NCBI GenBank assembly: GCA_945860725.1
Contig: CAMAQZ010000010.1
Coordinates: 1-58,663, forward strand
Direction of reading: 5' to 3'
Length of the DNA: 58,663 nucleotides
Source of the DNA: Klebsiella pneumoniae
Lineage (GTDB): Bacteria > Pseudomonadota > Gammaproteobacteria > Steroidobacterales > Steroidobacteraceae
Part shown: positions 1 to 29,267 of the stretch, piece by piece
Layout of the letters: the number at the start of each line of letters is the position of its first letter
How positions within the stretch are numbered: the first letter of the stretch is position 1
Notes under the pieces: model-generated
The model's input: only the letters and a program-made list of their open reading frames with translations
Told to the model about the DNA's origin: nothing
The model's database searches: none
Made by a program: the position numbers and the translations under genes

Positions 1-1553
1 ACCAATCGATCGCCTTGCTCGAGGTCGGCCTTTCACAGCATCCGACCAACGACCGGCTGCTGGGGGTGCTCTGCGAGGTGTTGGCGGTACGACGCGAGTG
101 GGGGCGGCTCGGCACCACGGCGCGCGCTTGGGCGGATGCCCGTCCCGAATTGCCGGATCCCTGGAAACAGCTCTCACGCGCGGCGTTCGAGCTCGGCCGC
201 ATGACCGATGCGGTGCAGGGGTTTTCGAATTATTTGATGCGTGGACGGCACGACGCCACCGATCTCGCGGCTTATGCGAGCCTGTGTCTTCACGCGCTCG
301 ACTTCGGGGCTGCCGAGACGGCGCTTGTGGCTGCTGAGGAACTCGACGCGGATCATCCCGAGGTGTTGGCGCGGCGGGCGTTGCTGCACATGTACCTCGG
401 TCGCTTCGATGCCGCCGCCGATGCGGCGCAGCGCTGTCTCGAGCGGCAGCCGGACAATGTCGCCGTCTACACCGTGCTCAGTCGCCTGCAGCAGGGCAGG
501 TTGGACGACGCGCAATGCGAGCGATTGCAGGCGATCGCGTCACGGTCGGCGGCGCCGTTCGACTACCGGATCCCGGCAGCGTTCGCGATCGCACATGCTT
601 TGGATGCGCGCGCGATGGGCAGTGCCGAGACCGAGCGTGCCTCGGCGGAGGTCGCGCTCGCGTTCGAGGCCTACACGCAGGCCCACGACCTCGCGCTTGC
701 ACGCGACTCCGCGGAGGGTCGCAGCTTCGATCGCGGCGGACAGTCGAAGCGCACCCAGCGCTTGGAGGTGCTGTTCCCGCGCGGCGGGTCGGTCATCGCC
801 CTGCCGCCGTCGCCGGTGCCGCGCCGACCGGTGTTCATCGTCGGCATGCCGCGCTCCGGCACGACGCTGGTCGAAGCCGTGCTCGGCGCCCATCCGCGCG
901 TGCACGCTTGCGGCGAGCGCGGCGCGATGCAGCGGATGTTGGGCAATTTCGTGTCGCTCGCGGATGAGGGTCGGGCGCCGGATGAGGCGATGCTCGCCAA
1001 GTGGGCGGCCGGGTATCTCGCCGAGCCCGCCGCCCCGGCGGGACGCGATGTCCTCACCGACAAGCAACCGCTCAATTTCAGCGCGGTGGGCCTGATCGCG
1101 CAGCTGTTCCCGGATGCCGTGATCCTGCATGTGCGTCGTGATCCGCTCGAGACTTTGCTGTCGATATGGCGCCAAGAGTTCGCGAAGTCCTGGGCCTTCA
1201 CCCATCGGCTCGAGGATCTCGGCCACTACTACGGCGAGTACGCACGCTTGATGGCGCATTGGGAGCAGGTGTTACCGGGTCGCCTCATCACGCTGCACTA
1301 CGAAGATTTCGCCGCCGATCTTGCAGCCTCTGCGCCGCGCCTGCTCGAGGCGTGTGGCCTGATCTGGGAGCCGCAGGTGCTCGACTACGCTTCGCTCGAG
1401 CGTCCGATCGCCACCTTCAGTGCGGTCGATGCGCGTGGACCGGTCGCGGTGCGCCGCGGCCGCGCTGCACGGTATGCGGCCCATCTGGCGCCCTTGGTCG
1501 ATTCGCTGCGCGCGGCGGGCGTCGATCCGACGACGGGGGCGCTCGCCGAATAA
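1..1553 (+). CDS. TPR-repeat sulfotransferase, 5' end cut by the window edge
   Basis: The N-terminal 260 or so residues are helical repeats of tetratricopeptide type (alternating A/L/Y-rich pairs). They are followed by a sulfotransferase domain. The PAPS 5'-phosphosulfate loop is visible as FIVGMPRSGTTLVE near residue 274, and the 3'-phosphate region as HVRRDPLETLLSIWRQEF near residue 371. The family transfers sulfate from PAPS to protein tyrosines or other acceptors; the acceptor here is unknown. The first codons of the window are open in this frame and the sequence begins inside a TPR repeat, so the true start lies upstream. It converges on a second TPR-sulfotransferase with one base between the stops. 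Family assignment is firm, substrate is not. Confidence 0.85.
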   Translation, partial: QSIALLEVGLSQHPTNDRLLGVLCEVLAVRREWGRLGTTARAWADARPELPDPWKQLSRAAFELGRMTDAVQGFSNYLMRGRHDATDLAAYASLCLHALDFGAAETALVAAEELDADHPEVLARRALLHMYLGRFDAAADAAQRCLERQPDNVAVYTVLSRLQQGRLDDAQCERLQAIASRSAAPFDYRIPAAFAIAHALDARAMGSAETERASAEVALAFEAYTQAHDLALARDSAEGRSFDRGGQSKRTQRLEVLFPRGGSVIALPPSPVPRRPVFIVGMPRSGTTLVEAVLGAHPRVHACGERGAMQRMLGNFVSLADEGRAPDEAMLAKWAAGYLAEPAAPAGRDVLTDKQPLNFSAVGLIAQLFPDAVILHVRRDPLETLLSIWRQEFAKSWAFTHRLEDLGHYYGEYARLMAHWEQVLPGRLITLHYEDFAADLAASAPRLLEACGLIWEPQVLDYASLERPIATFSAVDARGPVAVRRGRAARYAAHLAPLVDSLRAAGVDPTTGALAE

Positions 1554-1554
1554 T

Positions 1555-3096
1555 TCAGCGGCCGGTGGTCGCAGCGTCGATCGCTTCGGGGTCGAGGCCA
1601 CCGGCTTCGAGCGCCGCGCGCAGCGGGGCGAGGTGGGCCGCGTACTGCCGCCAACGGCCGGAGGCGCTTTGGTAAAGCGGCCGCCGCACCTGCCAGACGC
1701 TGGCGGTGCGTACCGCGCCTGCCGTGGCATGGAAGTCGAGGCAGCCCTCGTGCCAGAGCAGGCCACAGTGGTTGAGCAACGCAGCCAGCGTCTCGCGCGG
1801 TGCCTGCACCAGCGCATCGTAGTCGAGTGTGTGCACGGCCTCACCGAACAGCCGGTCCCAGTGCGCCATCAGTCGCCGTTGCTGAAGGAGGTAGTGGGCG
1901 ATGTCGAGGAGGTCGGTGGCGTAGGGCATGCCGTGGTCGAGGTGTAGGAACCACACCGACAGGCAGTTATCGAGCGGCCGTCGGCGCGTGTGGATGATGC
2001 GTGCGTCGGGGAACAGCGCACGCGCCACGCCGAGATACAAAAAATTGTCTGGCCGCTTGTCGGTGAGTACACCGCCTTGCGGGAACGTGGCGGTGCTGAG
2101 CGTCTCGTAACGCGCGGCGAGCGCTGCGCTGCGTGCGCCGTCGAGCGCGCCCAACGCAGCCGGGAAGGGCGCAAGCTCGCGCCGCACCATCGACGGCAGC
2201 CAGCTGAGCTCGCCGCCTGCCGTGACGCCGGGGTGTGCCGCGAGCATGCGCTCCGTGAGTGTCGAGCCGGAGCGGAACATGCCGCAGATGAAGAGCGGCG
2301 GCGGCGGGGCGGATGCATTGGCCTCGCGGCGCCGCAGTGTACGCGCAAAGAAATCGGTATCGCAGCGCCGGATGATGTCGTCGATGAAGCGCACATGCGC
2401 GTCGCGATCGTAGCGTGGGGTGCCCGGCGGTGCGCTGTCGCGGCTCGCGTGGTTGGCCGCGGTATAGGCGTCCCAAGCGGCCTCGTGGTCGCCGCCGGCA
2501 TCGAGCGCGCGACCGAGCGCGAAACCGAGGCCCGCACGCGCTTCGGGCGGCAAGCCTCGCCGCGCCAAAGCTGAACGCAGACGGCCGATCATCGGATCGT
2601 CGGCGTGCACGATCTCGCAGGCATTGGCCGCGCGCGCCAAGGCCTCGGAGTGCGCGGGGTCGAGTGTCAGCACACGCTCGTAGAGGGACTGCGCGGCGGT
2701 GCGTCGACCCGTGTCCTCGTGCAGGTTGGCGAGGTTGAGCAGCGCCGGTACATAGTGAGGTGAGTAGCGCAGCGCGGCTTCGTACTCGCGCGCGGCGTCA
2801 TCCGGGCGTTGCAGATCCTCGGCGAAGATGACGCCACGGTTGAGGTGGATCTCCTCGGGTCCGGCAGCGCCCCGCGCGAGCGCCTCGCGATAAGCGTCGA
2901 GCGCCGCCTCGGTGCGGCCGAGATGACGGCGCCGCAAGCCGAGGTTGTACCAGCTGTCGGCGAGATCCGGCGAGCGGCGCAGCGCGTCTTCCAGTACCCG
3001 TACGGAGTCCTCGAGACGCCCGGCGGCTGCGAGCGCGTCGGCCTCGGCGATCAGCGCTTGGACGATCAGGGTCTGTGCGGTCTCGGTTGGCCTCAT
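1555..3096 (-). CDS. TPR-repeat sulfotransferase (second paralogue)
   Basis: This 513-residue protein has about 240 residues of TPR repeats (for example SWYNLGLRRRHLGRTEAALD) and then a sulfotransferase domain with a PAPS loop LFICGMFRSGSTLTERML and a second binding segment HTRRRPLDNCLSVWF. It has the same architecture as the gene it faces at 1-1553, so the two are probably paralogues, inverted tail to tail. Its ATG lies 4 bases after the stop of the GloB-like gene on the same strand, so the two are probably co-transcribed. In the family such proteins sulfate proteins or small molecules; the acceptor cannot be told from sequence. Confidence 0.85.
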   Translation of the reverse strand: MRPTETAQTLIVQALIAEADALAAAGRLEDSVRVLEDALRRSPDLADSWYNLGLRRRHLGRTEAALDAYREALARGAAGPEEIHLNRGVIFAEDLQRPDDAAREYEAALRYSPHYVPALLNLANLHEDTGRRTAAQSLYERVLTLDPAHSEALARAANACEIVHADDPMIGRLRSALARRGLPPEARAGLGFALGRALDAGGDHEAAWDAYTAANHASRDSAPPGTPRYDRDAHVRFIDDIIRRCDTDFFARTLRRREANASAPPPPLFICGMFRSGSTLTERMLAAHPGVTAGGELSWLPSMVRRELAPFPAALGALDGARSAALAARYETLSTATFPQGGVLTDKRPDNFLYLGVARALFPDARIIHTRRRPLDNCLSVWFLHLDHGMPYATDLLDIAHYLLQQRRLMAHWDRLFGEAVHTLDYDALVQAPRETLAALLNHCGLLWHEGCLDFHATAGAVRTASVWQVRRPLYQSASGRWRQYAAHLAPLRAALEAGGLDPEAIDAATTGR

Positions 3097-3100
3097 ACGG

Positions 3101-3898
3101 CTACCAGGTGTTGCGCAGTTCGCGCAGCTTGCGGAACACCTGCCGCGGATCGGGGCGTGTCGGCATCTCTGGAAATCTTTGACGTAGGCGGTCTATGAGC
3201 TCCGGGCTGCCGAGCCGGAAGAAAGCGTTGATGCGACGCTCGTCGCCGAGCGTGGTGACGGGGGCATCGGCGCCGTCGCCCGTCGTGTCCGTGACCTGCG
3301 CGAGCAGCGCCGCCGCGGCTGCGTTGCCCGGCTCCATCTCGAGCGTGAAGGCGAGGTTGCGCGCGAGGTAGTCATGACCGGGGTGTACGGCCACCGAGTC
3401 CGGCAAGCGCGCGAACTGTCCGGCGAAGGTGTCGTAGAGCAGGTCAGGATCGCCGCCGTTGTGGCAGTTGCCGGCGCCCGCGTTGAAGAGCGTGTCGCCG
3501 CAGACCAGCGCCGGCTGGTCGCCGTGCGCCAGCAGGCAGACATGCGCGCGCGTATGCCCGGGCGTATCGAGGCATTCAAGTTCGACGCTGCGGCCGATGC
3601 GGATGATGTCGCCCTGACCCACCGCCCGGTCGAGCGCGCTCAGCTTCGGCCCGGCGCCTGCGTGCGCCAGCACCCGCGCGCCGGTGGCCGCGCGCAGCCC
3701 GTCGTTGCCGCCGATATGGTCGCCATGCTCGTGGGTGTTGAGGATGTGGGTGATGGTCCAGCCGTTACGCAGGGCGGCGGCGTGTACCGACTGCCAGTCG
3801 AGGGGGTCGACCGCCATAGCCTCGCCGGTCTCGCTGCAGGCGATGAGATAGTGGAAGTTGCGCCAGGCGTTCCCCGGCCAGATGCGCTCGATGATCAT
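3101..3898 (-). CDS. gloB: GloB-like hydroxyacylglutathione hydrolase (glyoxalase II family)
   Basis: A metallo-beta-lactamase-fold hydrolase of 265 residues, the usual glyoxalase II length. The metal motif THEHGDHIGGN is near residue 54, with further ligands in GHTRAH, GDTLFNAG and the C-terminal HPGHDY. Glyoxalase II hydrolyses S-D-lactoylglutathione and other hydroxyacyl thioesters of glutathione. The segment after GDTLF (GAGNCHNGGDPD) differs from the common CGRFFEG form, so this may be a subfamily with another thioester substrate. The ATG has a good ribosome site (GGAGGA about 8 bases upstream). It is divergent from the propionyl-CoA synthase gene and upstream of a sulfotransferase gene. 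Confidence 0.8.
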   Translation of the reverse strand: MIIERIWPGNAWRNFHYLIACSETGEAMAVDPLDWQSVHAAALRNGWTITHILNTHEHGDHIGGNDGLRAATGARVLAHAGAGPKLSALDRAVGQGDIIRIGRSVELECLDTPGHTRAHVCLLAHGDQPALVCGDTLFNAGAGNCHNGGDPDLLYDTFAGQFARLPDSVAVHPGHDYLARNLAFTLEMEPGNAAAAALLAQVTDTTGDGADAPVTTLGDERRINAFFRLGSPELIDRLRQRFPEMPTRPDPRQVFRKLRELRNTW

Positions 3899-4044: not shown

Positions 4045-7000
4045 ATGTCCAGTTCAAACGGAGCCATGGAATCGGTTCCGGCGTTGGCGGCTGTTGCCCC
4101 TGCGTCGGCCGTCGTCAATACCCTCACCTCGCGGGCGGCGTGGCAGCAAGCCCGTGACGCCTGTACGCGCGACCCCGGTGCCTACCACGCTGAACACGCG
4201 CGCCGCGATCTGCACTGGTTTGAACCGACCGTCGGGCTCCACGGCGCCTGGCTGTCTTTCGACGCCGCCGCAGGCCACTGGCGAGGGTGGGATGCGAAGA
4301 CCGCGGCACCGGTCGCGCCTGCGCTCGCGCCGGACTACGCCCCTTGGCGCACCGCGCTCGATGCGAGCGACGCGCCCTTCTACCGCTGGTTCGACGGCGC
4401 TCTCACCAACGCCTGCTTCAATGAAATAGATCGGCATGTGCTCGCCGGTCACGGCGCGGAGACTGCGTTCTTCTTCGAGGGTGATCGCTGGGACCAGTCC
4501 CTCGACGGCGGCCGCGGCGGTCCGGTGACCTCGTTCGGCGTGTCGCGCCGTCGGCTGCTGCTTGAGACGGTGCGTTGCGCGCTCGCGCTGCGGCGTCTCG
4601 GTCTCGCGATCGGCGACCGCGTCGCCATCAACCTGCCGAACATCCCGGAGCAGCTCTACTGGACAGAAGCCTGCAAGCGGCTCGGCCTCGTCTACACGCC
4701 GGTGTTCGGCGGCTTCAGCGACAAGACGCTCTCCGACCGCATCCATAACGCCGGTGCGCGCGTGGTGATCACCGCTGACGGCGGCTACCGCAACGCCCAG
4801 GTCGTGGCATTCAAAGAAGCCTATACGGACCCTGCACTCGACGGCTATGTCCCTGCCGAAACCGCGGTCGACGCTGTGGCCAGCGCCTTGACCACGCTCG
4901 GGCTCGCCCCGGCGCAGGCCGAGGCGATCCTCGCTGGCGCCCGTGCTGCCACCGCGAACGAGATCACGCTCGAGCGCTCGGATGTCATGCGCGGCGTCGG
5001 TCGCGCGCTCGAGGCGCAGGCCGGCATCGGCTCCGCTGAGGCGAGCCGCATCCGCACCGCCATCGCGTCGGCGCTGGTGACCGTGCCACCGCGGATCGAC
5101 ACCGTTATCGTGGTACGCCACGCAGCGCTGCCCGGGCTGCTGTGGCGGCCAGAGCGGGACCGCTGGGGTCACGAACTCACCGACGCCGCCACCCTCGAGA
5201 TCCTCGCCGCAGCGCGGGCTGCCGGTTTCGCCGTAGATTCCGAGGACGCGTTGCTCGCACTGCCCGACGCCTCGCTGGTCGCTGCGCTGTGGGCTGCGGT
5301 GCCGCCGGAGCCGCTCGACGCCGAGTTCCCGCTGTTCTTCATTTACACCTCCGGTTCGACGGGCAAGCCCAAGGGCGTGGTGCATGTGCACGGCGGCTGG
5401 GCGGCGGGTGTCGCGCACACCATGCGCGTCGCCTTCGACGCCCGTCCGGGCGATGTCATGTATGTCGTCGCCGACCCAGGCTGGATCACCGGCCAGAGCT
5501 ACATGTACTGCGGTGCGCTCACCACGCGCGTGACCACCGTCATCGCCGAGGGTGCACCGGTGTTCCCCGGCGCGGGCCGCTTCGCCAGTATCATCGAGCG
5601 CTACCAGGTCAATATATTCAAGGCCGGCGTCACCTTCCTCAAGACCGTGATGACCGATCCCCAGAACGTCGAGGATGTGCGCGCGTACTCGCGCAGCTCG
5701 TTGCGCGTCGCGACCTTCTGCGCCGAGCCGACCTCGCCGGTGGTGCAGCAGTTCGGCATGGAGCTCGTGACCCCCTGGTACATCAACGCCTATTGGGCGA
5801 CCGAGCACGGCGGCATCGTCTGGACGCACCACTTCGGCAACGGCGACTTCCCGTTGCGCGCCGACGCCCACACCTACCCGCTGCCCTGGATCGCAGGCGA
5901 TGTCTGGGTCGCCGACGGCGAACCGGATGGCGCGGGCGCCGTCGTGGCCCGTCCGGCCGAGGTCGGCGAAAAAGGCGAAATCGTGATCGCCGCGCCGTTC
6001 CCCTATCTGTGCCGCACCATCTGGGGCGATGAGGGCGAGTTCCGCGTCGAGGGGCGTCGAGTCGCGCGCAGCTGGCGTGGCGACTTCGAGCGCTACCGCA
6101 AGACCTACTGGACACGTTGGCAAGGCCGGCTCGCCTACACGCAGGGCGACTTCGCGTTGAAGTATCCCGACGGCGGCTTCTCGCTGCACGGCCGCTCCGA
6201 TGATGTCATCAATGTCTCCGGTCACCGTCTCGGCACCGAGGAGATCGAGGGTGCAATCCTTCGCGATAAGCAGATCACCCCGGATTCGCCGGTCGGCAAC
6301 GTGATCGTGGTCGGCGCGCCCCACGCGCAGAAAGGGCTCACGCCGCTCGCCTTCGTGCGTCCCGCGCCCGGCCGCAAGCTCGCCGCTGAGGACCGACGAC
6401 GGCTCATTGAGATCGTGCGCCAGGAAAAAGGCCAGGTCGCGGTCCCCGAAGATTTCATCGAGGTCGCGCAGTTCCCGGAGACCCGCAGCGGCAAGTACAT
6501 GCGGCGCATGGTGCGTGCGCTGGTCGAAGGGCAGGATGTGGGCGACACCTCGACGCTGCGCAACCCCGAATCGATCGGCGAGCTGCGTCGCGCGATCGAT
6601 GAGTGGCAGGAGCGTCAACGCGTCGCCGACGAGCAGCGCCTGTTCGAGGATTTCCGCTACTTCCGCATCCATTACCACGCGCTCGGGCCACCGCGCCGCC
6701 GCCGCAGCGCCCGCGCCCCCGACCGCATCGCCTTGGTGACGGTCACTAACCCACCGGTCAACGCGCTCAACGAGCGCGCGCTCGACGAGCTCAACATCGT
6801 CATCGACCACGTTTCGCGGCGCGACGATGTAAAGGCAGTGGTGTTCACGGGTCAAGGCTCAGCGGCGTTCGTCGCCGGCGCCGACATTCGCCAGCTGCTC
6901 GAGGATGTGCACACGCTCGAGGAGGCGTTGCCGCTGCCGAACAACGCGCACCTCGCGTTCCGCAAGATCGAGGCGATGGACAAGCCCGCCATCGCCGCCA

Positions 7001-9597
7001 TCAACGGCGTCGCGCTCGGCGGTGGCATGGAGTTCGCGATGGCCTGCCATGTCCGTGTGGCCGAGCCGCTCGCGAGCTTCGGACAGCCCGAGGTGAGATT
7101 GAACCTGTTGCCGGGGTACGGTGGCACACAAAGATTGCCGCGGCTGCTCGAAGAAGCCGGACATGCGGCGCCGCTTGCCCGCGCGCTTGAGATCATCATG
7201 GGCGGGCGCACGGTCACGGCGGAGGAGATGCTCGCCGATGGTCTGCTGCACGCCGTGGCGGGCAACGGCACGGAGGGCGCACACCCGGGCGAGGATGTGG
7301 TGTCGCTCGCCACGCGCCTCGCGGCGCGATTCGTCGCCGCCCCTTCAGGACGTAACCTGGTCGCGCGCGCGTTTGCGGCGCGTAAAGCCGCGAACACCGC
7401 CTGGCAACGACCGGGGTGCGATGCACTCGAGGCGACGCTGCAGAAACCAGAGGTGATGCGGTTACTCGCGCAAGCCGAGCGTGTCGGCCGTGGACCGACT
7501 TCGGCGCGGATCCTCGATGCCGTGCGCACCGGCTGGGAGCAGGGGTTCGCAGCGGGATTGGCGCGCGAGGCGCAGTTGTTCGCCGAGGCGGTGATCGATC
7601 CGCAAGGCGGAAAAGCCGGGATCCAGGCCTTCCTCGACAAGCACAGCGCACCCTTGCCGGTGCGCAGTACGACTGACCCGTCGATCGATGACGAGCGCGC
7701 CATCGCAGCGATGGTGCGCCGGGGCGAACTGCTGCCGGTCGGCGCAGCGTTCTTCCCCGGACTCACGCCACTGCCCAGTTGGCAGTACGGTCACGCCGTC
7801 ATACGCGACCCGGCGACCGGCGCGCCGGCGCACGGTCTGCCGCAGGACTCGGAGCGCCAGATCCTGTTGCCGGTCCCGCATCCGGAGCCGAACGAGGCAC
7901 TGGTCTATGTGCTCGCGTCCGAGGTCAACTTCAATGATATCTGGGCGCTTACCGGTATCCCGGTGTCGCCGTTCGAGAATCACGACCTCGACCATCAGGT
8001 GACCGGTTCGGGCGGCGTCGCCCTCGTGGCGGCGGTCGGCAGCGAAGTGAAGCGCGAGGGCCGTATCAAGGTGGGCGACCTGGTCACGGTGTACTCGGGT
8101 CAGAGCGACTTGCTCTCGCCGCTCGCGGCGCGCGACCCGATGTACGCCGGGTTTTCCATCCAAGGCTACGAGACCGACACCGGCAGCCATCAGCAGTTCC
8201 TGGTCGCACAGGGGCCGCAGCTGCATCCTTTGCCGCCGGACCTCACGCTCGAAGCGGCCGGTTCTTATGTCCTCAACTTGGGCACCGTGGTGCGCGCGCT
8301 GTTCACCACGCTGCGCATCCGTTCGGGCAAGACGCTCTTCGTCGAAGGCGCAGCGACCGGCACCGGATTCGAGGCGCTCAAGAGCGGCGCCCGCAACGGT
8401 CTCGCTGCGGTCGGGCTCGTCTCGAGCCCGGAGCGTGCAGCGTTCATCCGGCGCCATGGCGCGACCGGTGCGCTCGATCGGCGCGATTCGCGCTGGGCCG
8501 CAGCATTCACGCCGGTACCGGCATCACCCGAGGCGATCGCGGCCTGGGAGCGCGCCGGTGAGCCGCTGCTCGCCGAGATGCGCGCGCAGACCGGCGGCCG
8601 TCTCGCGGACTACGCGGTCTCGCACGCCGGACAGGAATCCTTCCCGCGCTCGTTCCAGCTGCTTGCCGAGCACGGCACGCTGACCTTCTACGGCGCGACC
8701 AGCGGCTACTGGTTCTCGTTCGCCGGCAAGCCGGGCGAAGTCCCGCCCGAGGAGATGCTGCGCCGCGCCGGCCTGCGGGCGGGTGAGGCGGTGTTGCTCT
8801 ATTACGGTGTCGTCCCCGGTGATGATGGCCGCACGGGCGTCGGTCATGGTGCATTGCTCGACCCCGTGGGTCTCGAGGCCATCGAAGCGGTGCGTGCCGC
8901 TGGTGGCCGGCTCGTCGTGGCGACCCTGAGCGATGCGCAACGCGAGTTCGTGCAGTCGCTCGGCTTCGGTGACGCGGTGCGCGGCGTGGTATCGCTCGAG
9001 GAGATCCGCCGCAAGGAAGGGGCGGACTTCGATTGGCCGGAGGCGCTGCCCGCGATGCCGGACGCTAAGCGCGAGACCGGCCGGTTCAAAGAATCGGTCC
9101 GGCAGTTCCAAGACCGGACGATGAAACCGCTGGGCAGCGCGGTCGGCCGTTGGTTACGCTCCGCCGACAATCCACGCGGCTACCCGGACCTCGTGGTCGA
9201 GCGTGCAGGTCACGATGCGCTCGCTGCCTCGACCTCTTTGGTGAAGCCGTTCACCGGTCGGGTGGTGTACTGCGAGTCGATGCAAGGGCGGCGATACACC
9301 TTCTATGCACCGCAGGTCTGGATGCGGCAACGGCGCATCTTGATGCCGACGGCGACCATCGCGGGCACCCACCTCTGCAACGCCTACGAAGTCGCGCGCA
9401 TGAACGACATGATCGCCGCCGGACAGCTGGAGGTCAGCCCGCCGACGATGGTGCCTTGGGAGGCGCTCCCGCAGGCGCATCAATCGATGTGGGACAACAC
9501 CCACGCGGGCGCCAACTATGTGGTCAACCATGCCTTGCCGCGCGCCGGTTTGCGCAGCCGTGACGAACTTTTCCAGGAATGGGGAGCCCGCCCGTGA
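4045..9597 (+). CDS. pcs: Trifunctional propionyl-CoA synthase (ACS-ECH-ECR fusion)
   Basis: This protein of 1850 residues has three catalytic domains in the order known from Chloroflexus propionyl-CoA synthase (about 1820 aa). (1) Acyl-CoA synthetase, about 20-860: P-loop YTSGSTGKPKG at 434-444 and C-terminal catalytic lysine in TRSGKYMRR (K817). (2) Enoyl-CoA hydratase, about 885-1150: NGVALGGGMEF and GQPEVRLNLLPG, giving the crotonase glutamates E996 and E1016, 20 apart as expected. (3) Medium-chain enoyl-CoA reductase, about 1230-1850, related to crotonyl-CoA carboxylase/reductase: VEGAATGTGFEALKSG at 1433. Predicted reaction: 3-hydroxypropionate + ATP + CoA + NADPH to propionyl-CoA via 3-hydroxypropionyl-CoA and acryloyl-CoA. 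I chose ATG 4045 for its GGAG site; an in-frame GTG at 4012 is weaker. An arginine-rich linker (PPRRRRSARAP) joins domains 1 and 2. Confidence 0.93.
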   Translation: MSSSNGAMESVPALAAVAPASAVVNTLTSRAAWQQARDACTRDPGAYHAEHARRDLHWFEPTVGLHGAWLSFDAAAGHWRGWDAKTAAPVAPALAPDYAPWRTALDASDAPFYRWFDGALTNACFNEIDRHVLAGHGAETAFFFEGDRWDQSLDGGRGGPVTSFGVSRRRLLLETVRCALALRRLGLAIGDRVAINLPNIPEQLYWTEACKRLGLVYTPVFGGFSDKTLSDRIHNAGARVVITADGGYRNAQVVAFKEAYTDPALDGYVPAETAVDAVASALTTLGLAPAQAEAILAGARAATANEITLERSDVMRGVGRALEAQAGIGSAEASRIRTAIASALVTVPPRIDTVIVVRHAALPGLLWRPERDRWGHELTDAATLEILAAARAAGFAVDSEDALLALPDASLVAALWAAVPPEPLDAEFPLFFIYTSGSTGKPKGVVHVHGGWAAGVAHTMRVAFDARPGDVMYVVADPGWITGQSYMYCGALTTRVTTVIAEGAPVFPGAGRFASIIERYQVNIFKAGVTFLKTVMTDPQNVEDVRAYSRSSLRVATFCAEPTSPVVQQFGMELVTPWYINAYWATEHGGIVWTHHFGNGDFPLRADAHTYPLPWIAGDVWVADGEPDGAGAVVARPAEVGEKGEIVIAAPFPYLCRTIWGDEGEFRVEGRRVARSWRGDFERYRKTYWTRWQGRLAYTQGDFALKYPDGGFSLHGRSDDVINVSGHRLGTEEIEGAILRDKQITPDSPVGNVIVVGAPHAQKGLTPLAFVRPAPGRKLAAEDRRRLIEIVRQEKGQVAVPEDFIEVAQFPETRSGKYMRRMVRALVEGQDVGDTSTLRNPESIGELRRAIDEWQERQRVADEQRLFEDFRYFRIHYHALGPPRRRRSARAPDRIALVTVTNPPVNALNERALDELNIVIDHVSRRDDVKAVVFTGQGSAAFVAGADIRQLLEDVHTLEEALPLPNNAHLAFRKIEAMDKPAIAAINGVALGGGMEFAMACHVRVAEPLASFGQPEVRLNLLPGYGGTQRLPRLLEEAGHAAPLARALEIIMGGRTVTAEEMLADGLLHAVAGNGTEGAHPGEDVVSLATRLAARFVAAPSGRNLVARAFAARKAANTAWQRPGCDALEATLQKPEVMRLLAQAERVGRGPTSARILDAVRTGWEQGFAAGLAREAQLFAEAVIDPQGGKAGIQAFLDKHSAPLPVRSTTDPSIDDERAIAAMVRRGELLPVGAAFFPGLTPLPSWQYGHAVIRDPATGAPAHGLPQDSERQILLPVPHPEPNEALVYVLASEVNFNDIWALTGIPVSPFENHDLDHQVTGSGGVALVAAVGSEVKREGRIKVGDLVTVYSGQSDLLSPLAARDPMYAGFSIQGYETDTGSHQQFLVAQGPQLHPLPPDLTLEAAGSYVLNLGTVVRALFTTLRIRSGKTLFVEGAATGTGFEALKSGARNGLAAVGLVSSPERAAFIRRHGATGALDRRDSRWAAAFTPVPASPEAIAAWERAGEPLLAEMRAQTGGRLADYAVSHAGQESFPRSFQLLAEHGTLTFYGATSGYWFSFAGKPGEVPPEEMLRRAGLRAGEAVLLYYGVVPGDDGRTGVGHGALLDPVGLEAIEAVRAAGGRLVVATLSDAQREFVQSLGFGDAVRGVVSLEEIRRKEGADFDWPEALPAMPDAKRETGRFKESVRQFQDRTMKPLGSAVGRWLRSADNPRGYPDLVVERAGHDALAASTSLVKPFTGRVVYCESMQGRRYTFYAPQVWMRQRRILMPTATIAGTHLCNAYEVARMNDMIAAGQLEVSPPTMVPWEALPQAHQSMWDNTHAGANYVVNHALPRAGLRSRDELFQEWGARP
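9581..9597 (+). promoter_or_regulatory. Ribosome site and 4-bp coupling junction between the two giant genes
   Basis: GGGGAG at 9581-9586 lies 7 bases before a GTG at 9594. That GTG overlaps the TGA stop of the upstream gene as GTGA (9594-9597). This arrangement favours translational coupling and roughly equal synthesis of both enzymes. The in-frame ATG at 9579 has no better ribosome site and would only add five residues. Confidence 0.55.
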
Positions 9598-12500
9598 GTC
9601 CTACCGCCCAGAAAACTGCCGCCAAAAAGACGGCCATAAAGAAGCCGGTCGCAAAGAAGACCGCGGCCCGACCCGTCACGGCGGTCCTGCGTCCCGGCCG
9701 TCTCATCGGTAAGGTCGCGATCGTCACCGGCGCCGCAGGCGGCATCGGCCAGGTGATTGCGCGCCGTTATCTCGAGGAGGGTGCGACGGTCGTGCTCACC
9801 GGTCGCAGCCGCGAAAAACTCGACGTCCTGCGCGTGTCCCTGCTGGCGGCGACGGGTGCGCCCGCTGCGGATGTGATGACGCTGGCGTTCGACGCCGCCG
9901 ATCCGGGGCAGGCGCGTTTCGGCGTCGAGGCGGTGATGCGCGAGTACGGCCGCATCGATATCCTCGTCAACAACGCCGGATCCGCGGGTCCCAAGCAGCC
10001 GATCTTCGAGCAGCCGCTGACGCGCGAGGAACTCGAGGCGCAGCGCGCGGCCGGTTCCACCGACATCGAGACGGTGCGCGATGCCGCCGGCAACCTGCTT
10101 GGTCTCGCCTGGAACATGGTGCGGGCCGTCGCGCCGCACCTCGGTCGCGGCTCGAGCATCATCAATGTCTCGACCATCTTCTCGCGGACCAAGTACTACG
10201 GCCGGTCGGCGTATGTGATGCCCAAGGCTGCGCTCAGCGCGCTCTCCAAGCAGCTTGCGCTGCAGCTCGGCGCCAACGGCATCCGCGTCAACACGGTGTA
10301 TCCGGGCCCCATTGAAGGCCCGCGCATTCGCAATGTGTTCAGCGCTATGGACAAGGTGCGCAACACGTCGCAGGGCACCACCACCAACGACTTCCTCTCG
10401 GTGATGGCGCTGTCGCGGCGCGATGAGACCTCGGGCGAGGACTACACCTTCCCGACCATCGACGATGTCGCCAACTCCATCGTGTTCCTCGGCAGCGACG
10501 AGTCGCGCGCCTTCAGCGCGCAGGGCTTCGAGGTCACCAACGGCATGCAGGTGCCGCATGAGTCGCGTTCCACCTGGGCGTCGCGTCCGGAGCTGCGCAC
10601 CGTCGACGGCACCGGTTCAACGGTGCTGGTCGCCGCGGGCGACCAAGTCGCTGATGCGCTCGCCATCGCGCGTGCGCAGGCGGGCTGCGGCGCGCAGGTC
10701 ATCCTCGGCCTCGGCTCCGAGGAGTCCGTTGAGGCGGCGCGTGCGGGATTGCGCGACAGCGAGGTCGATGCGCGCATCCGGCCAGAACTCTTCGACCGTC
10801 GCCGTCCGGAGACGCTCGTCAACGCGCTGCAGACCATCACCCAAGATCAGCCGCTGCACGGTGCGATCGTGTTGCCCGCCTTCGGCACCTGGCGTTTCCA
10901 TGCGCCGCTCGCCGAGGCCAGCGACGCCGATGTCGACGCCTTCCTCGGCGCCGAGCTCACGGGCGGGCTGGCTGTGGCGCGCGCGCTGTCCCGTCTCTGG
11001 CGCGAGCGCTCGACGCCCGATTCCTGGCTGCGGGTGATCTTCCTGTCGAACGGCTCGGACGGCGCGGGCAACGTCTACGCCGATATCCTGCGCGCCGGGC
11101 TCGAGCAGTTGATTCGCGTCTGGCGCGATGAGAGCGAAGTGCAGTGGCGCGCTGGTGTGCGGCCGGTCGCCACTTGGTCGAATCAGGTCGTGCGCTGGGG
11201 CAACGAAGAGGACCACAGCCTCGCCTTCGCCGCGAACCAGGGCGCACGCCTGCTCTTCACCCAGCGTCGTGTGCCGCAGATCAATCTCTATGTGCCCGCC
11301 ACACTGGTCGATGCGACCGGCTCGACGCGGCCGGATTTCGGCTGGATCGAATCCTTGATGGGCCTGCATCTCGGCAAGTGCGTGTTGGTGACGGGCGGTT
11401 CCGCCGGCATCGGCGGCCAGCTCGCGAGGCTGCTCGCGGTGTCGGGCGCGCGCGTGATGCTGGCCGCACGCCGTGAAGGGCCGCTCAAGACGCTGCGCGA
11501 CGAGATCGTGCGCGAGCTTGAAGAGATCGGCTACAACCGGCCGAAGGATCGCGTGCGCCTGCTCGCCGACATCGATGTCGCCGATGAAGCCGCGCTCGGC
11601 AAGGCGGTCGCCGAGACGCTGCGGGCGTTCGGTCGCATCGACTACCTCATCAACAATGCGGGCGTCTCCGGCGCCGAGCAGATGGCAGTGGACATCCAGC
11701 CTAGCGACTGGCGTAACACCTTGAACGCCAACCTCACCTCCAACTATTCCCTGATCGAGAAGGTCGTGCCGCTCATGAAGCGGCAAGGCTCCGGCTATAT
11801 CCTCAATGTCAGCTCCTATTTCGGCGGCGAGAAGTACATCGCGGTCCCGTATCCGAACCGCTCGGATTACGCGGTCTCCAAAGCAGGTCAACGCGCGCTG
11901 GTCGAGAACCTCGCGCGCTTCGTCGGACCCGAGATTCAGATCAACGCCATCGCGCCGGGTCCGGTCGAGGGCCAACGCCTGAAGGGCAAGGACGGCAAAG
12001 CTGGGCTCTTCGACCGTCGCGCCAAGCTGATCCTCGAGAACAAGCGCTTGAACCTGGTGCACGACGCGGTGCTGCGCACCCTCGCCGAAGGCGGGCGTCT
12101 CGATGACGTACTCGCAGCGCTCGAGCCCAATGACGTCGGGCTGTTGCAAGCGCCGCAGGTGCCGGCGCCGCTGCGTGCGGCGGGCGTGCAGATCCGCGGT
12201 GCGGTACATCATCTGGAGGAGGCCGCGCACTCTTCTTTAAAGCATGTGATGACGCGGGTGATGGCGATGCGCCTGATCGCCCGCTTGCGCAACGGCTGCG
12301 TGCTGCTCGATCCCGAGGCCTGTGCGCGTGCCGAGGCTTGGGTCCTGCGTCTGCCTGAGCCTGCAGAGCCGTTCGTCGATCCCTTGCGCATCGACGAGGA
12401 TGCCGGTCGCATCCGTGACGGTGTGCTCGGTATGTTGCACCTGCATCGCATGCCGACCGAGCTCGATGTCGCGGTCGCCACCGTGTTTTTCATGGCAGAT

Positions 12501-13337
12501 CGCGCGATCTCCGGTGAGACCTTCGAGCCCTCGGGTGGCCTGCAGCAGGAGCGTACCATCACCGAGCGTGAGCTCTTCGGTCGGGCCAAGCCCGAGCGCG
12601 TGCAGCGCATGGAAGGCGAGACGGTCTGGTTGATCGGCGAGCACATGGCCGAGCCGCTCGTCGCCGTGGCGCGGCTGTTCCTTGCGGAGGGCCATGTTGG
12701 CAGCATCGTCACGCTCACCCGCACCGTAGAGGCCGGTGAGAAGATCCGCACCCTGCTCGGCCGCGCGCTGGGCCACGATCGCGTGTCCTATCGGACCGTG
12801 GGGGATGATGGCCTGGAGGCCAGCATGGACGCGGCCTATGCAGAGGGCGGTGCGCCCGCCGCGGTCATCTCGACGCCGCTCGCGCCGATCCCACAGGCCT
12901 TGTTCGGCGTCGCCGGCAAGGATCACCTTGATGCGACCGGATTTGCCGAACTGGTCGAGACCAACCTGACGCACCACTTCCGCGTCGCGCGTAAAGTCTC
13001 GCTGTTCAAGGGTGCGAGGCTGATCCTCGTGTCGCCTGATGTACCGGTGGGCGGCACGCTACCGCAGTTCGCCATGGCGAACTTCGTCAAGACCACGTTG
13101 CACGCCTTCACCGCGACCCTCGGTGTCGAGAACGAACGGCTGCCGACCGGGGTCCCCGTGAACCAGGTCAACCTGACGCGGCGTATGCGCAGCGAGGAAC
13201 CGCGTGATGCGGCCGAGCAGGTCGAAGAGTACCAACGCTTCGCGCATGCGGTGCTGCTGGCTGCGGCGCCGATCGTCGAGGCAACGGAGAGCCGCTACCG
13301 CGCACGGATCTACCGCGGCCTCGCGATCACGGTCTGA
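9594..13337 (+). CDS. mcr: Bifunctional malonyl-CoA reductase (tandem SDR domains)
   Basis: This 1247-residue protein is close to Chloroflexus malonyl-CoA reductase (about 1220 aa). The N half begins with an SDR fold: TGAAGGIG at 45-52 and catalytic YVMPK (Y207, K211). The C half repeats this: TGGSAGIG at 600-607 and YAVSK (Y759, K763). After each active SDR comes a second Rossmann-like stretch without these motifs (about 335-570 and 1005-1240), matching the four-SDR layout of the family. In known enzymes the C half reduces malonyl-CoA to malonate semialdehyde and the N half reduces that to 3-hydroxypropionate, both with NADPH. The product feeds the enzyme encoded just upstream. A lysine/alanine-rich N-terminal tail (about residues 6-26) is unusual. 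Confidence 0.92.
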   Translation: MSPTAQKTAAKKTAIKKPVAKKTAARPVTAVLRPGRLIGKVAIVTGAAGGIGQVIARRYLEEGATVVLTGRSREKLDVLRVSLLAATGAPAADVMTLAFDAADPGQARFGVEAVMREYGRIDILVNNAGSAGPKQPIFEQPLTREELEAQRAAGSTDIETVRDAAGNLLGLAWNMVRAVAPHLGRGSSIINVSTIFSRTKYYGRSAYVMPKAALSALSKQLALQLGANGIRVNTVYPGPIEGPRIRNVFSAMDKVRNTSQGTTTNDFLSVMALSRRDETSGEDYTFPTIDDVANSIVFLGSDESRAFSAQGFEVTNGMQVPHESRSTWASRPELRTVDGTGSTVLVAAGDQVADALAIARAQAGCGAQVILGLGSEESVEAARAGLRDSEVDARIRPELFDRRRPETLVNALQTITQDQPLHGAIVLPAFGTWRFHAPLAEASDADVDAFLGAELTGGLAVARALSRLWRERSTPDSWLRVIFLSNGSDGAGNVYADILRAGLEQLIRVWRDESEVQWRAGVRPVATWSNQVVRWGNEEDHSLAFAANQGARLLFTQRRVPQINLYVPATLVDATGSTRPDFGWIESLMGLHLGKCVLVTGGSAGIGGQLARLLAVSGARVMLAARREGPLKTLRDEIVRELEEIGYNRPKDRVRLLADIDVADEAALGKAVAETLRAFGRIDYLINNAGVSGAEQMAVDIQPSDWRNTLNANLTSNYSLIEKVVPLMKRQGSGYILNVSSYFGGEKYIAVPYPNRSDYAVSKAGQRALVENLARFVGPEIQINAIAPGPVEGQRLKGKDGKAGLFDRRAKLILENKRLNLVHDAVLRTLAEGGRLDDVLAALEPNDVGLLQAPQVPAPLRAAGVQIRGAVHHLEEAAHSSLKHVMTRVMAMRLIARLRNGCVLLDPEACARAEAWVLRLPEPAEPFVDPLRIDEDAGRIRDGVLGMLHLHRMPTELDVAVATVFFMADRAISGETFEPSGGLQQERTITERELFGRAKPERVQRMEGETVWLIGEHMAEPLVAVARLFLAEGHVGSIVTLTRTVEAGEKIRTLLGRALGHDRVSYRTVGDDGLEASMDAAYAEGGAPAAVISTPLAPIPQALFGVAGKDHLDATGFAELVETNLTHHFRVARKVSLFKGARLILVSPDVPVGGTLPQFAMANFVKTTLHAFTATLGVENERLPTGVPVNQVNLTRRMRSEEPRDAAEQVEEYQRFAHAVLLAAAPIVEATESRYRARIYRGLAITV

Positions 13338-13364: not shown

Positions 13365-14015
13365 ATGCGTCTCGAAGTCGTCCCGGTTACGCCGTTCCAG
13401 CAGAACTGCTCAGTGCTGTGGTGTGAGGCCACCCGCCGGGCGGCGGTGGTCGACCCGGGGGGCGAGATCGACCGTCTGCTCGCGGTGGTGGCGAAGCATG
13501 GGCTGACGCTCGAGAAGATCCTCATCACCCACGCCCACCTCGACCACGCGGGCGGTACCGCCGAGCTTGCCCGTCGCAGCGGTGTGCCCATCGAGGGTCC
13601 GCAGCAGGACGACCAGTTCTGGATCGAGCAGATGCCGGCCCAAGCCCGGATGTTTGGCTTTCCGCCGAGCGAGGCGTTCATCCCGGACCGTTGGCTGCAG
13701 CACGGCGATCGGGTGACGGTGGGTGAACTCGAGTTCGAGGTCTTGCACTGTCCGGGTCATACGCCCGGTCATGTGGTGTTCTTCCAGCGCGCGGCGCACT
13801 ACGCGATCGTCGGCGATGTGATCTTTGCGGGTTCCATAGGCCGCACAGATTTTCCGCGTGGCGACCACGCACAATTATTGTCTTCGATCCGCGAGCGGTT
13901 GTTCCCGCTCGGCGATGACATCACGTTCCTGCCAGGCCATGGGTCCGAGTCGACCTTTGGCGAGGAACGCCTTCACAACCCGTTCGTCGCCGATCGGCTG
14001 TTCGCTGGCCGTTGA
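13365..14015 (+). CDS. gloC: GloC-like metallo-beta-lactamase-fold thioester hydrolase
   Basis: A short (216 aa) metallo-beta-lactamase-fold protein. Metal ligands are in THAHLDHAGG (near residue 56), HCPGHTPGH, the aspartate of VGDVIF and the C-terminal LPGHG. The size and motifs fit the YcbL/GloC type II glyoxalases, which hydrolyse S-lactoylglutathione and related thioesters. It starts 27 bases after the malonyl-CoA reductase stop on the same strand and could be the third gene of that operon. This is the second glyoxalase-II-type gene next to the 3-hydroxypropionate pair. Substrate preference cannot be read from sequence. Confidence 0.8.
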   Translation: MRLEVVPVTPFQQNCSVLWCEATRRAAVVDPGGEIDRLLAVVAKHGLTLEKILITHAHLDHAGGTAELARRSGVPIEGPQQDDQFWIEQMPAQARMFGFPPSEAFIPDRWLQHGDRVTVGELEFEVLHCPGHTPGHVVFFQRAAHYAIVGDVIFAGSIGRTDFPRGDHAQLLSSIRERLFPLGDDITFLPGHGSESTFGEERLHNPFVADRLFAGR

Positions 14016-24188: not shown

Positions 24189-25585
<1,397 letters not shown>

Positions 25586-25586
25586 C

Positions 25587-27164
25587 TCAGGGTGCCGCGT
25601 CGCTGGACGCCGCGTCCTCGAATCCGAACGATATCTGCTCCGGTGCGATCACCCGCCCGGCGCGACGCAGCGGTACCGCTCGATTGGCTTGTCCACGACG
25701 CGTGCGCTGCCGATCGCGGCTGCCGAGTCTGCGCAGCACGCCCTTCGCCGCCTCGCGGAACCCCTCGCCCTGCCGATAAGGCGTCATGCGCAGACGCGCT
25801 TCGCGCGCGGCCTGCTCGTGGTCGACGACCGGTGGCGGGTAGTCCCGCGGCGGTGTGTCGAGCCGCCACGGCTCGTGTAGCGCCGCGACCGGCAGATCGC
25901 GCAGTTCCGGCAGGTAGCGGCGGATGAACTTGCCGTCGGAGTCGTGGTCCAAAGATTGCTTCACCGGGTTGTAGATCCGCACGGCGTTGATACCCGTCAC
26001 ACCCGACTGCATCTGGAATTGGCTGTAGTGGATGCCGGGCTCGTAGTCGGTGAAAAGCTGCGCGAGGACCGGTGCCGTCCGACGCCAATCGAGCCACAGA
26101 TGGTAGCTTGCGAACGCGACCAGCATGGCGCGCATGCGGAATGTGATCCAGCCGTTCGCGTGCAACGAGCGCATGCAGGCGTCGACGAGCGGATAGCCGG
26201 TACGGCCGTCACGCCAAGCGTTGAAGAGCGCTTCACGATGGTCGGCCTCGCGCATCCCCTCGAACGCGGGATGCATGCAGCGGAATTCGATCGACGGCTG
26301 TTGATCGAGCTTCTGCACGAAGTGGCAATGCCACGCGAGGCGCGAGCGGAAGGCCCTCAGTTGACGTGCCCAGTCCGCCCCGCCGGGATCGCCCGCGCCC
26401 TGCAGCGCATCGATGCGCGCCGCTGCCGCCTGATCGACCTCGCGCACCGAGAGGGTGCCGTAGGCGATGTGCGCGCTCAGCCGTGAACAGTGACGCGCCG
26501 AGATGCCGGGCTTGGAGATCGTGCGCATATAGCGGCTGGAGCGCGAGTCGAGGAAGGAGTCGAGCACGGTCAGACCTTCGCGGCGTCCACCGCGCTGCAC
26601 CGAGGCTGCCGCAGGGCTCGCCAACGGGTCGAGCGTTCCGTCGGTCAGGGCGGCAGTCGAAACGGCGGACAGCGGCGCGAAATGGATCCGGCGTGGCTGC
26701 GGACGTTGCGGTGTGCGCATCACCCCATCGCGCCGCGCGGCCCAACCATCGCGGTTGCCGAGGCGCCGCACCACGCCGTTGGCAGGGGATTCGGTCCAGA
26801 CGACACCGCGCTCGCGGCACCATGCGGCGACCTTTTGATCGCGCCGGAAGGTCCAGTCGTTGCCGGTCTCCTCGTGCGACCAGAGCGCGAAGCGGCCGAG
26901 GGTGTGCTCGAGTTCCGTGAGCGTCTCGAGGATGTCACCGCGGCGCAGCACGAGCCCGCCGCCGATCCTACGTAATCCGTCAGCGAGATCGGTGAGCGAA
27001 TCGCGGAGGAAACGCCAGTGGCGGAACGAGGCATCGTGCTGGCGCCAAAGATCCGGTTCGACCACATAGAGCGGCACCACCGGGCCGCGTTCCGCTGCAT
27101 CGCAGAGCGGCGCGTGGTCGTGCAGACGCAGATCGCGTTTGAACCACACCACCTGTGGCGTCAT
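25587..27164 (-). CDS. Cryptochrome/photolyase-family flavoprotein
   Basis: A 525-residue protein with an N-terminal photolyase alpha/beta domain (VVWFKRDLRLHDHAPL) and a C-terminal helical FAD domain (GYPLVDACMRSLHANGW, RIYNPVKQSLDHD, FIRRYLPEL). Classical photolyases use light to split pyrimidine dimers. Differences from E. coli PhrB are plain: HNRLR becomes TFRMR after the GW, and the GTDAAPYFRIFNP flavin loop is replaced by a shorter TGINAVRIYNP. So this is a divergent subgroup with untested activity. It overlaps bioF by 4 bases and precedes bioC by one base, so it is embedded in the biotin operon. Confidence 0.85.
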   Translation of the reverse strand: MTPQVVWFKRDLRLHDHAPLCDAAERGPVVPLYVVEPDLWRQHDASFRHWRFLRDSLTDLADGLRRIGGGLVLRRGDILETLTELEHTLGRFALWSHEETGNDWTFRRDQKVAAWCRERGVVWTESPANGVVRRLGNRDGWAARRDGVMRTPQRPQPRRIHFAPLSAVSTAALTDGTLDPLASPAAASVQRGGRREGLTVLDSFLDSRSSRYMRTISKPGISARHCSRLSAHIAYGTLSVREVDQAAAARIDALQGAGDPGGADWARQLRAFRSRLAWHCHFVQKLDQQPSIEFRCMHPAFEGMREADHREALFNAWRDGRTGYPLVDACMRSLHANGWITFRMRAMLVAFASYHLWLDWRRTAPVLAQLFTDYEPGIHYSQFQMQSGVTGINAVRIYNPVKQSLDHDSDGKFIRRYLPELRDLPVAALHEPWRLDTPPRDYPPPVVDHEQAAREARLRMTPYRQGEGFREAAKGVLRRLGSRDRQRTRRGQANRAVPLRRAGRVIAPEQISFGFEDAASSDAAP

Positions 27165-28309: not shown

Positions 28310-29267
28310 CGGGCGCTCCCACAGCGGTGCGCATGCCGAGCCGCGTCAACAACGCCCGGTCGTGCTCGACATCGGGGTTGCCGGTGGTGAGCAGCTTCTC
28401 GCCGTAGAAGATGGAGTTCGCACCGGCGAAGAACGCGAGCGCCTGCAGTTCGTCGGACATCTGCTCGCGTCCCGCCGAGAGCCGTACCGCCGCGTGCGGC
28501 ATGAGGACGCGCGCGACCGCGATGGTGCGGACAAAATCGAACGGATCGATCGGCGCCTGACCAGCAAGCGGCGTACCGGGCACGGCGACCAACTGATTGA
28601 TCGGGACGCTCTCGGGGTGATGCGGCAGGTTGGCGAGCACCTGCAGCATGCGCGCACGGTCGCGCACCGTCTCGCCCATGCCGACGATGCCGCCGCAGCA
28701 GACATTCATCCCCGCCTCGCGTACTGCCTCCAGCGTATCGAGCCGGTCCTGGAATACGCGGGTGGTGATGATCTCGCCGTAGAACTCGGGCGAGGTGTCA
28801 ATGTTGTGGTTGTAGTAGTCGAGCCCGGCCTCGCGTAATTCTTTGGCTTGCTCGAGTGTGAGCATGCCGAGCGTGGCGCAACTCTCGAGGCCGAGCGAGC
28901 GCACCTCACGGATCATCGCCGACATCACCTCGATGTCGCGTTTCTTGGGCGAGCGCCAGGCGGCACCCATGCAGAAGCGCGTGGCGCCCGCCTCGCGTGC
29001 GGCCTTGGCACGCGCGGCGACATCGGCCACCGCCATCAGCGTCTCACGCTCGAGACCGGTGTCGTGGCGGATGCTCTGCGGGCAATACGCGCAGTCCTCC
29101 GGGCAGGCCCCCGTCTTCACCGACAACAGCGTGCTCATCTGCACCGTGTTCGCCGGTTGGTGGGCGCGGTGGACGCACTGCGCCTCGAACAGCAGGTCTT
29201 GGAACGGCAGCGCGAACAGCGCTTCGACCTGTTCGGTCGTCCAGTCGTGGCGGGCGGCTGCGGTCAT
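28293..29267 (-). CDS. bioB: Biotin synthase
   Basis: A 324-residue radical SAM enzyme. The cluster motif is [10 protein letters not shown] near residue 52. The [2Fe-2S] ligands are seen in SCATLGML, in [10 protein letters not shown] and in the downstream arginine/cysteine blocks. It inserts sulfur into dethiobiotin. I chose ATG 29267; the frame is open further upstream but the extension does not resemble BioB. It is the first gene of the operon bioB-bioF-photolyase-bioC-bioD. Confidence 0.96.

Follow-up and report, generated by a model that had tools for sequence, protein, structure and literature searches.

The 3-hydroxypropionate (3HP) bicycle has been described in Chloroflexus aurantiacus, where two key enzymes, malonyl-CoA reductase (MCR) and propionyl-CoA synthase (PCS), serve the half that leads from acetyl-CoA to succinyl-CoA (PMC8307300). 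Here we analyzed a window of 58,663 nucleotides, which is contig C10 (CAMAQZ010000010.1) of a Steroidobacteraceae genome designated G000 (2.15 Mb, 98.85% complete), and in which two adjacent genes on the forward strand, pcs (4045..9597) and mcr (9594..13337), encode the predicted counterparts of both enzymes. We consider it rather likely that this pair, together with an acetyl-CoA carboxylase and a cluster for propionyl-CoA carboxylase (pcc), epimerase and methylmalonyl-CoA mutase (mcm), makes up a RuBisCO-free half bicycle for light-supported co-assimilation of CO2. The window's genome shares with C. aurantiacus both key enzymes and the half that runs from acetyl-CoA to succinyl-CoA; the two differ in that Mct was not found in the window's genome.

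The MCR of Roseiflexus castenholzii and the structure 8hjw resemble the window MCR in being full-length tandem short-chain dehydrogenase/reductase (SDR) proteins, and 13 Roseiflexus sites are identical in it, whereas the host belongs to another phylum and, in Chloroflexota loci that extend far enough past pcs, mcr was not found there (10/10; in L079 mcr stands before pcs). Erythrobacter sp. NAP1 (locus L085) has, like the window, a three-domain PCS fusion, the three catalytic residues, mcr behind pcs with a 4-nt overlap, and PF00124, the family matched by pufLM, in its genome; it differs in its alphaproteobacterial host and in the clade to which its PCS belongs. Porphyrobacter sp. ULC335, like NAP1, possesses key enzymes of the 3HP route but no complete pathway for CO2 fixation; its bicycle genes were up by day, and CO2 co-assimilation has been proposed for it (PMC10674011). 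Porphyrobacter is likewise alphaproteobacterial, and its loci L061 and L101 have accA behind mcr, unlike the window. Key enzymes outside the Chloroflexota are also reported for metagenome-assembled genomes (MAGs) of Burkholderiales, which were predicted phototrophs, and of Gemmatimonadota; these differ from the window's genome in that the bicycle lies above a completeness threshold or has all its genes (PMC9802188). The same source names Steroidobacteraceae in the context of the Calvin cycle. Gammaproteobacterial symbionts present the reverse case, most of the bicycle with neither mcr nor pcs (PMC6593406), and 3HP pathways in a boreal lake were described as almost full with no mcr (PMC6094481). 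Both enzymes, and the idea in general, have thus far been published for Erythrobacter NAP1, Porphyrobacter, and the Burkholderiales and Gemmatimonadota MAGs. In the open-access literature, with few subscription papers covered and texts represented in part, we recognized no report of mcr-pcs in Steroidobacteraceae or of an association between pcs and puf.

The pcs and mcr genes and their products

The pcs gene runs from an ATG at 4045 to a TGA ending at 9597 (+) and encodes a trifunctional PCS of 1850 residues. Pfam placed three domains, AMP-binding, ECH_1 and ADH_zinc_N, on this one chain, and the activities predicted for them are those of a 3-hydroxypropionyl-CoA synthetase, a dehydratase and an acryloyl-CoA reductase. 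A phmmer comparison aligned residues 28–1848 of the 1850 to PDB chain 6eqo with 2438 bits; the molecule is named acetyl-coenzyme A synthetase in the PDB, and it corresponds to the PCS of Erythrobacter sp. NAP1. The PCS encoded at the NAP1 locus is 61.7% identical to that of the window, and identities of about 74–98% were obtained across loci of the host genus and two sister genera. K817, E996 and E1016 were invariant in all 72 full-length rows, the window counted; K817 is the synthetase lysine and the two Glu residues are those of the hydratase. As judged from the near end-to-end match, these residues and the position in the PCS tree, the identification is firm.

The mcr gene is predicted to encode a bifunctional malonyl-CoA reductase/3-hydroxypropionate dehydrogenase of 1247 residues from a GTG start at 9594, running to 13337 (+); an in-frame ATG at 9579 is an alternative start that would give 1252 residues. 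Two SDR stretches were detected with Pfam, and the N- and C-terminal reductase halves are both full-length. The key residues are T194-Y207-K211 in SDR1, S741-Y759-K763 in SDR3, and R809. The protein aligned with 8hi4 from residue 36 and with 8hjw from residue 34, in each case to the C-terminal end (1173 bits for 8hi4; phmmer). Both entries are full-length malonyl-CoA reductases that the PDB labels SDR proteins, and 8hi4 is presumably the MCR of R. castenholzii, going by its numbering. The catalytic and binding residues reported for the Roseiflexus enzyme (T165, Y172, R175, Y178, K182, S731, Y743, R746, Y749, K753, R785, L795 and R799; PMC10470521) were transferred by hand via the 8hi4 alignment, and all 13 are conserved in the window MCR, R1164 lying outside the mapped set. 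Across 52 rows, 12 of the 13 mapped sites were invariant and Y172 was kept in 51. The near full-length match and these residues make the MCR identification, by sequence, firm as well, and for both proteins matches of such length and score (2438 bits to 6eqo, 1173 bits to 8hi4) lie far beyond chance.

The two genes overlap by four nucleotides, GTGA at 9594..9597 (+), where the mcr start lies over the pcs stop, an overlap that suggests translational coupling. Of 55 junctions between pcs and mcr, 21 had as their nearest mcr start one that overlaps pcs by 4 nt, including those of Erythrobacter NAP1 and one Gemmatimonas MAG; in this count the start codon closest to the pcs stop was picked mechanically, and L056, one of the 55, gave no value. 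An earlier note on this DNA had described an ACS-ECH-ECR fusion followed, with a GTGA overlap, by a tandem-SDR MCR; both open reading frames were recovered at the coordinates given above, and the seven residues that it named (PCS K817, E996 and E1016; MCR Y207, K211, Y759 and K763) are present. Its assignment of the products to the PCS and MCR families agrees with the near full-length matches and the residues, and in the PCS tree the window stands among rows that include Chloroflexus and Erythrobacter NAP1.

Relatives, the host genus and reaction-centre genes

A scan of 84,980 species genomes returned 310 stretches at an E-value of 1e-3 that encode some relative of the query, not necessarily all PCS, and the best 80 of these 310 were analyzed. 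The 80 loci hold full or truncated PCS genes of 59–98% identity. Immediately downstream of pcs, mcr was present in 54 of the 67 loci having at least 1500 nt behind pcs. The 13 loci without it came from Chloroflexota (10), Aneurinibacillus (2) and a MAG titled Rhodocyclaceae (1), and the count for Pseudomonadota and Gemmatimonadota together was 54/55; L079, a Chloroflexaceae MAG, showed the reversed order with mcr just before pcs. The 54 pcs-mcr loci span Sphingomonadales, Burkholderiales, Steroidobacteraceae and Gemmatimonadota, and several bear pond or lake names, a wider range than the few marine proteobacteria from which the earlier note knew the pair.

The PCS tree was calculated with FastTree from 72 rows, all of them PCS, and rooted at the midpoint without an outgroup. 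The window fell among PCS rows into a Steroidobacteraceae clade, of which the Rhodocyclaceae-titled MAG is also a member. It is close to Gemmatimonadota and further gammaproteobacterial rows and separate from the Erythrobacter/Sphingomonas and Chloroflexus clades. The midpoint root divides the PCS of Chloroflexus islandicus from that of Erythrobacter NAP1, and the window is in its own clade on the Chloroflexus side. Gemmatimonadota rows required four changes on the tree, at least three of them forced by starred branches, and this scatter suggests, without proving it, transfer of PCS. When the PCS and MCR trees were compared over 49 shared loci, 35 of 46 splits were common to both, as against at most 3 in 200 label shuffles, which indicates that pcs and mcr largely moved together. 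The MCR tree, having no solved MCR and one Chloroflexota row only, is a weaker test of family than the PCS tree; of the two trees that the earlier note had proposed, the PCS tree fits its assignment and the MCR tree is less informative.

Some of the related loci were irregular. In the Rhodocyclaceae-titled MAG (L039:9977-15445), PCS is of the Steroidobacteraceae type (78% identity) and is not followed by mcr; a gene for a BglII-type restriction endonuclease follows PCS and one for a FAS1-type dehydratase precedes it, and a misnamed bin or a rearrangement is possible. In Sphingomonas psychrolutea (L056:10001-19319) and a Steroidobacteraceae MAG (L038:15532-19193), the mcr match is split over two reading frames, and translation of the L056 pcs from the match start reaches a stop after three residues; the broken frames may reflect either decay or sequencing errors.

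The genus of the host was surveyed in 24 Steroidobacteraceae genomes, genes split over two contigs being scored as present. PCS was found in 21 of them and not in G185, G191 or G196. In a set of 21 loci (the window, L001, counted) mcr follows pcs in 19, and contig ends cut the other two (L018 and L019). Among 398 Pseudomonadota genomes drawn, PCS occurred in two, the window's own and one other, which makes it a rare gene across the phylum as a whole. GC content is 68.4% in pcs and 67.1% in mcr versus 67.0% in the remaining window; this match, the housekeeping genes on the contig and the genus-wide conservation rule out contamination or recent uptake by the window's genome alone. The small genomes G185 and G191 (1.4 Mb, 83% complete) yielded neither PCS nor puf, nor any PccB, canonical mutase or complete isocitrate lyase, as if the module and phototrophy had been lost together, or as if the genes lay on missing contigs.

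The window's genome has two PF00124 (pufLM) matches on contig C2, the second cut by the contig end. By its pufL and pufM genes the host, known from a genome bin alone, would be of the aerobic anoxygenic phototroph type. Within the genus, PF00124 was present in 20 of 24 genomes (as a single match in G195). Every one of the 13 genomes with a completeness of 90% or more has it, and 12 of those 13 hold PCS. The base rate of PF00124 was measured inside the family only, where 38 of 217 genomes carry it: 21 genomes had both PCS and puf, two had PCS without puf, 17 had puf without PCS and 177 had neither (Fisher p = 7e-17), that is, PF00124 in 21/23 PCS genomes vs 17/194 without PCS. In the family outside the genus, both PCS genomes were puf-positive, as were 18 of 193 genomes there (p = 0.008). 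Across all phyla outside the genus, PF00124 was found in 45 of 50 tested PCS genomes (Pseudomonadota 35/37, Chloroflexota 6/6, Gemmatimonadota 4/5 and Bacillota 0/2). The five negatives were one MAG each of Novosphingobium and Sphingomonas, a Gemmatimonadetes MAG from groundwater and two Aneurinibacillus isolates. The puf test covered 50 of 67 loci, 17 having been omitted by hand, mostly relatives of retained rows; L037 and L038 are among the 17, and their genomes (G140 and G165) carry PF00124. Overall, PCS shows a strong association with reaction-centre genes in three phyla.

A proposed route from acetyl-CoA to succinyl-CoA and its alternatives

Contig C8 of the window's genome carries, in one cluster on one strand, mcm, meaB, pccB, pccA and an epimerase-type Glyoxalase_4 gene. 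The mutase scored 1264 bits, above the cut-off of 876, and the carboxyltransferase 768 bits on the mmdA model, below the cut-off of 998.8. The biotin carboxylase passes the accC cut-off, yet has the PCC_BT domain of propionyl-CoA carboxylase in addition to a biotinyl domain, and the epimerase assignment is by Pfam family only. Matches on contigs C45 and C63 fit AccA and AccD, names given from region and length. Taken together, the C8 cluster and these matches indicate that a path from acetyl-CoA to succinyl-CoA with two carboxylations is encoded. MCM-type and PccB-type matches were both found in 20 of the 21 PCS genomes of the genus, a number in which G186, G190 and G199 are counted from partial or split matches in one or the other. 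The earlier note had suggested looking in the rest of the genome for genes of this kind, for pufLM and for mesaconyl-CoA genes: pccAB, the epimerase-type gene and the mutase turned up in the one cluster outside the window, reaction-centre genes (PF00124) are present, and an Mct-type protein was not found in G000.

Further evidence came from Alphaproteobacteria: of their 31 mcr loci, 18 have accA only 0–64 nt past the point where the mcr match ends; a nineteenth accA (L080) is 2 kb further from mcr. The Pfam name was tested on the accA of L048, to which the remaining accA are 60–73% identical, L052 being cut by a contig end. Such a position of accA, seen in 18 loci, suggests that malonyl-CoA is made for MCR, with acetyl-CoA as the feed.

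In the proposed route, MCR would reduce malonyl-CoA to 3-hydroxypropionate with 2 NADPH, and PCS would convert this to propionyl-CoA with 1 NADPH and the conversion of ATP to AMP. The 1 ATP in the earlier note's balance is corrected accordingly, as the PCS step splits ATP into AMP plus pyrophosphate (PPi). The mcr-pcs pair would join acetyl-CoA carboxylase to the pcc-epimerase-mcm cluster, giving as the net reaction acetyl-CoA + 2 HCO3- -> succinyl-CoA, which would be the RuBisCO-free half of the 3HP bicycle. Its output would refill the tricarboxylic acid (TCA) cycle during growth on organic carbon, at the expense of light-derived ATP and reductant. Catalytic activity, the direction of flux and the coupling to light are what we infer here from the genes.

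Whether the host may run the complete autotrophic bicycle, with acetyl-CoA regenerated via malyl-CoA, mesaconyl-CoA and citramalyl-CoA steps, depends on the second half. Genes for MCR, PCS, an ACC-type carboxylase, PCC and MCM are encoded, the one HpcH/HpaI protein of G000 matches the malyl-CoA lyases 5ugr (109 bits) and 4l9y (101 bits; also 4l7z/4l80, 56 bits), and photosynthetic Burkholderiales MAGs pass the completeness threshold while two Gemmatimonadota MAGs have all the genes (PMC9802188). That protein, however, has its best PDB match in a citrate-lyase-type chain (3qll, 133 bits), matched the RipC and CitE models below cut-off and no malyl-CoA lyase model at an E-value of 1e-20, and its gene adjoins an aldehyde dehydrogenase gene that is no bicycle gene. 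Moreover, Mct was not found in this 98.85% complete genome, the six CoA-transferase III proteins (CoA_transf_3) reaching at best 80 bits on TIGR04253 (cut-off 725) or falling short of an E-value of 1e-20. We therefore regard the complete bicycle as highly improbable, and autotrophy is not supported by the gene content of the window's genome. RuBisCO was not found in the 24 genomes of the genus (0/24), and the Calvin cycle was rejected on this ground.

Some gene clusters of the genus look like the glyoxylate cluster of the bicycle. Three CoA-transferase III genes stand together on contig C14 of G000 and in relatives; in G185, G188, G196, G200 and G203 they are accompanied by an HpcH/HpaI gene, located among or next to them. 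At first sight this cluster resembled Mct, SmtAB and Mcl, but Mct was rejected by the scores. The CoA-transferases of G193 reached no more than 82 bits on the Mct model (cut-off 725), and their neighbours are acyl-CoA dehydrogenases, an SDR and a sulfatase; the lyase of G196 is CitE-like (225 bits), with 85 bits on a malyl-CoA lyase model (cut-off 500). Conserved in the genus, the CoA-transferase III cluster was observed at L116:8180-9151 and L118:5307-16270, with acyl-CoA dehydrogenases as seen in G193 and, in five genomes, with a CitE-like lyase.

The pair might instead serve the assimilation of 3-hydroxypropionate, either external or arising from beta-alanine, uracil or acrylate breakdown, in which case PCS would be the main enzyme and MCR would act as a 3-hydroxypropionate dehydrogenase. 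Two Aneurinibacillus isolates (L094 and L055) have PCS without an adjacent mcr and without a puf match, as such a role would allow, and the L094 PCS gene is flanked on both sides by uracil-DNA-glycosylase-family genes with a xanthine/uracil permease gene behind; as a pointer to a source of 3-hydroxypropionate, the Aneurinibacillus neighbours gave no clear one. We find this role unlikely, given that pcs is immediately followed by mcr in 54 of the 55 Pseudomonadota and Gemmatimonadota loci with room, that the two trees have 35/46 splits in common, that the malonyl-CoA reduction residues of MCR are intact, and that accA follows mcr in 18 loci. Propionyl-CoA could also be wanted as a building block for odd-chain lipids or polyhydroxyalkanoate, or the pair could be a pure NADPH sink, in both cases without onward carboxylation. 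The pathway is known to consume 3 NADPH, and G205 has pcs-mcr with no canonical MCM or PccB found; the retention of both MCM-type and PccB-type matches in 20 of the 21 PCS genomes speaks against this explanation, to which we likewise give little credence.

Several observations weigh against the light-supported half bicycle itself. G196 has puf, MCM and PccB yet no PCS was found in it, which indicates that the module is dispensable, and PCS is missing from 17 of the family's phototrophic genomes. Conversely, G189 and G199 (both 77% complete) are PCS genomes of the genus without puf. The family figure is due largely to the genus, outside which only two PCS genomes of the family were found, and the association statistics ignore kinship, related genomes not being independent. 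G205, which is 100% complete, has pcs-mcr and puf, and canonical MCM and PccB were not found in it. The accA linkage has its exceptions as well: in 12 alphaproteobacterial mcr loci, including NAP1, no accA was found in the locus within the 5–6 kb examined behind mcr; accA was not found next to mcr in the window, where a metallo-beta-lactamase (MBL)-fold gene takes this place, nor in any examined non-alphaproteobacterial locus; and two of the 18 accA loci (L049 and L073) come from genomes without a puf match. The window's genome also encodes isocitrate lyase, so that mcr-pcs need not be the sole route for refilling from acetyl-CoA, and the notion of mcr-pcs as the only acetate route is weakened accordingly. 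In favour of the half bicycle, no full-length isocitrate lyase was found in G190, G192, G194, G199 or G202, five PCS genomes within the genus, of which one is 96% and one 93% complete. Lastly, the light-coupled half bicycle is read from genes, and in an estuary the 3HP gene K14469 was expressed only at night and at a low level, which counts against a simple daylight reading (PMC12694420).

Neighbouring genes and wider meaning

Behind mcr by 27 nt lies a gene for an MBL-fold hydrolase (13365..14015, +; Pfam Lactamase_B). Eight of the 80 loci have such a gene following mcr; in each of them PCS is at least 78% identical to that of the window, and the hydrolase gene is possibly an operon member near the window's lineage only. 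Upstream of pcs and divergent from it, a GloB-like hydrolase gene (3101..3898, -) scored 172.9 bits on TIGR03413, under the cut-off of 200.8; this neighbour also occurs in 8 of 80 loci, its conservation being confined to the neighbourhood of the window's lineage. As conserved neighbours across phyla were sought, accA alone stood out, in Alphaproteobacteria only, the GloB and MBL genes being lineage-local. Near pcs-mcr, two convergent TPR-sulfotransferase genes occupy window positions 15-3096. Farther along the same contig, biotin-synthesis-type genes and a DNA photolyase gene lie at 24189-29624; the former comprise an AAA_26 gene (which could be bioD), a bioF-type aminotransferase and a bioB-type radical SAM gene, the gene names being tentative. 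Biotin is required by both carboxylases of the proposed route. Cytochrome oxidase genes are also present in the window. In a Gemmatimonas MAG (L043:19228-24299), a tight run of lysine-pathway-type genes stands behind mcr, consisting of an M20 peptidase, a semialdehyde dehydrogenase, an amino-acid kinase with an ACT domain, dapB and dapA.

What this analysis adds to the first reading of this DNA is the link with phototrophy across three phyla, as well as the accA found behind mcr. A phototroph lineage that has no RuBisCO but a fixed mcr-pcs operon, along with the association of PCS and reaction-centre genes in three phyla, offers a specific and testable gene pair, and the relatives provide a wider source of PCS and MCR sequences relevant to synthetic CO2 fixation. 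There is about an even chance that mcr-pcs is a transferable carbon-capture add-on of phototrophs with type II reaction centres in at least three phyla, a RuBisCO-free half bicycle paid for by light, with its own accA behind mcr in many Alphaproteobacteria, which most carriers would use for CO2 co-assimilation and only some for autotrophy. For the host itself, the two genes probably allow cell material to be built from acetyl-CoA and carbon dioxide without RuBisCO.

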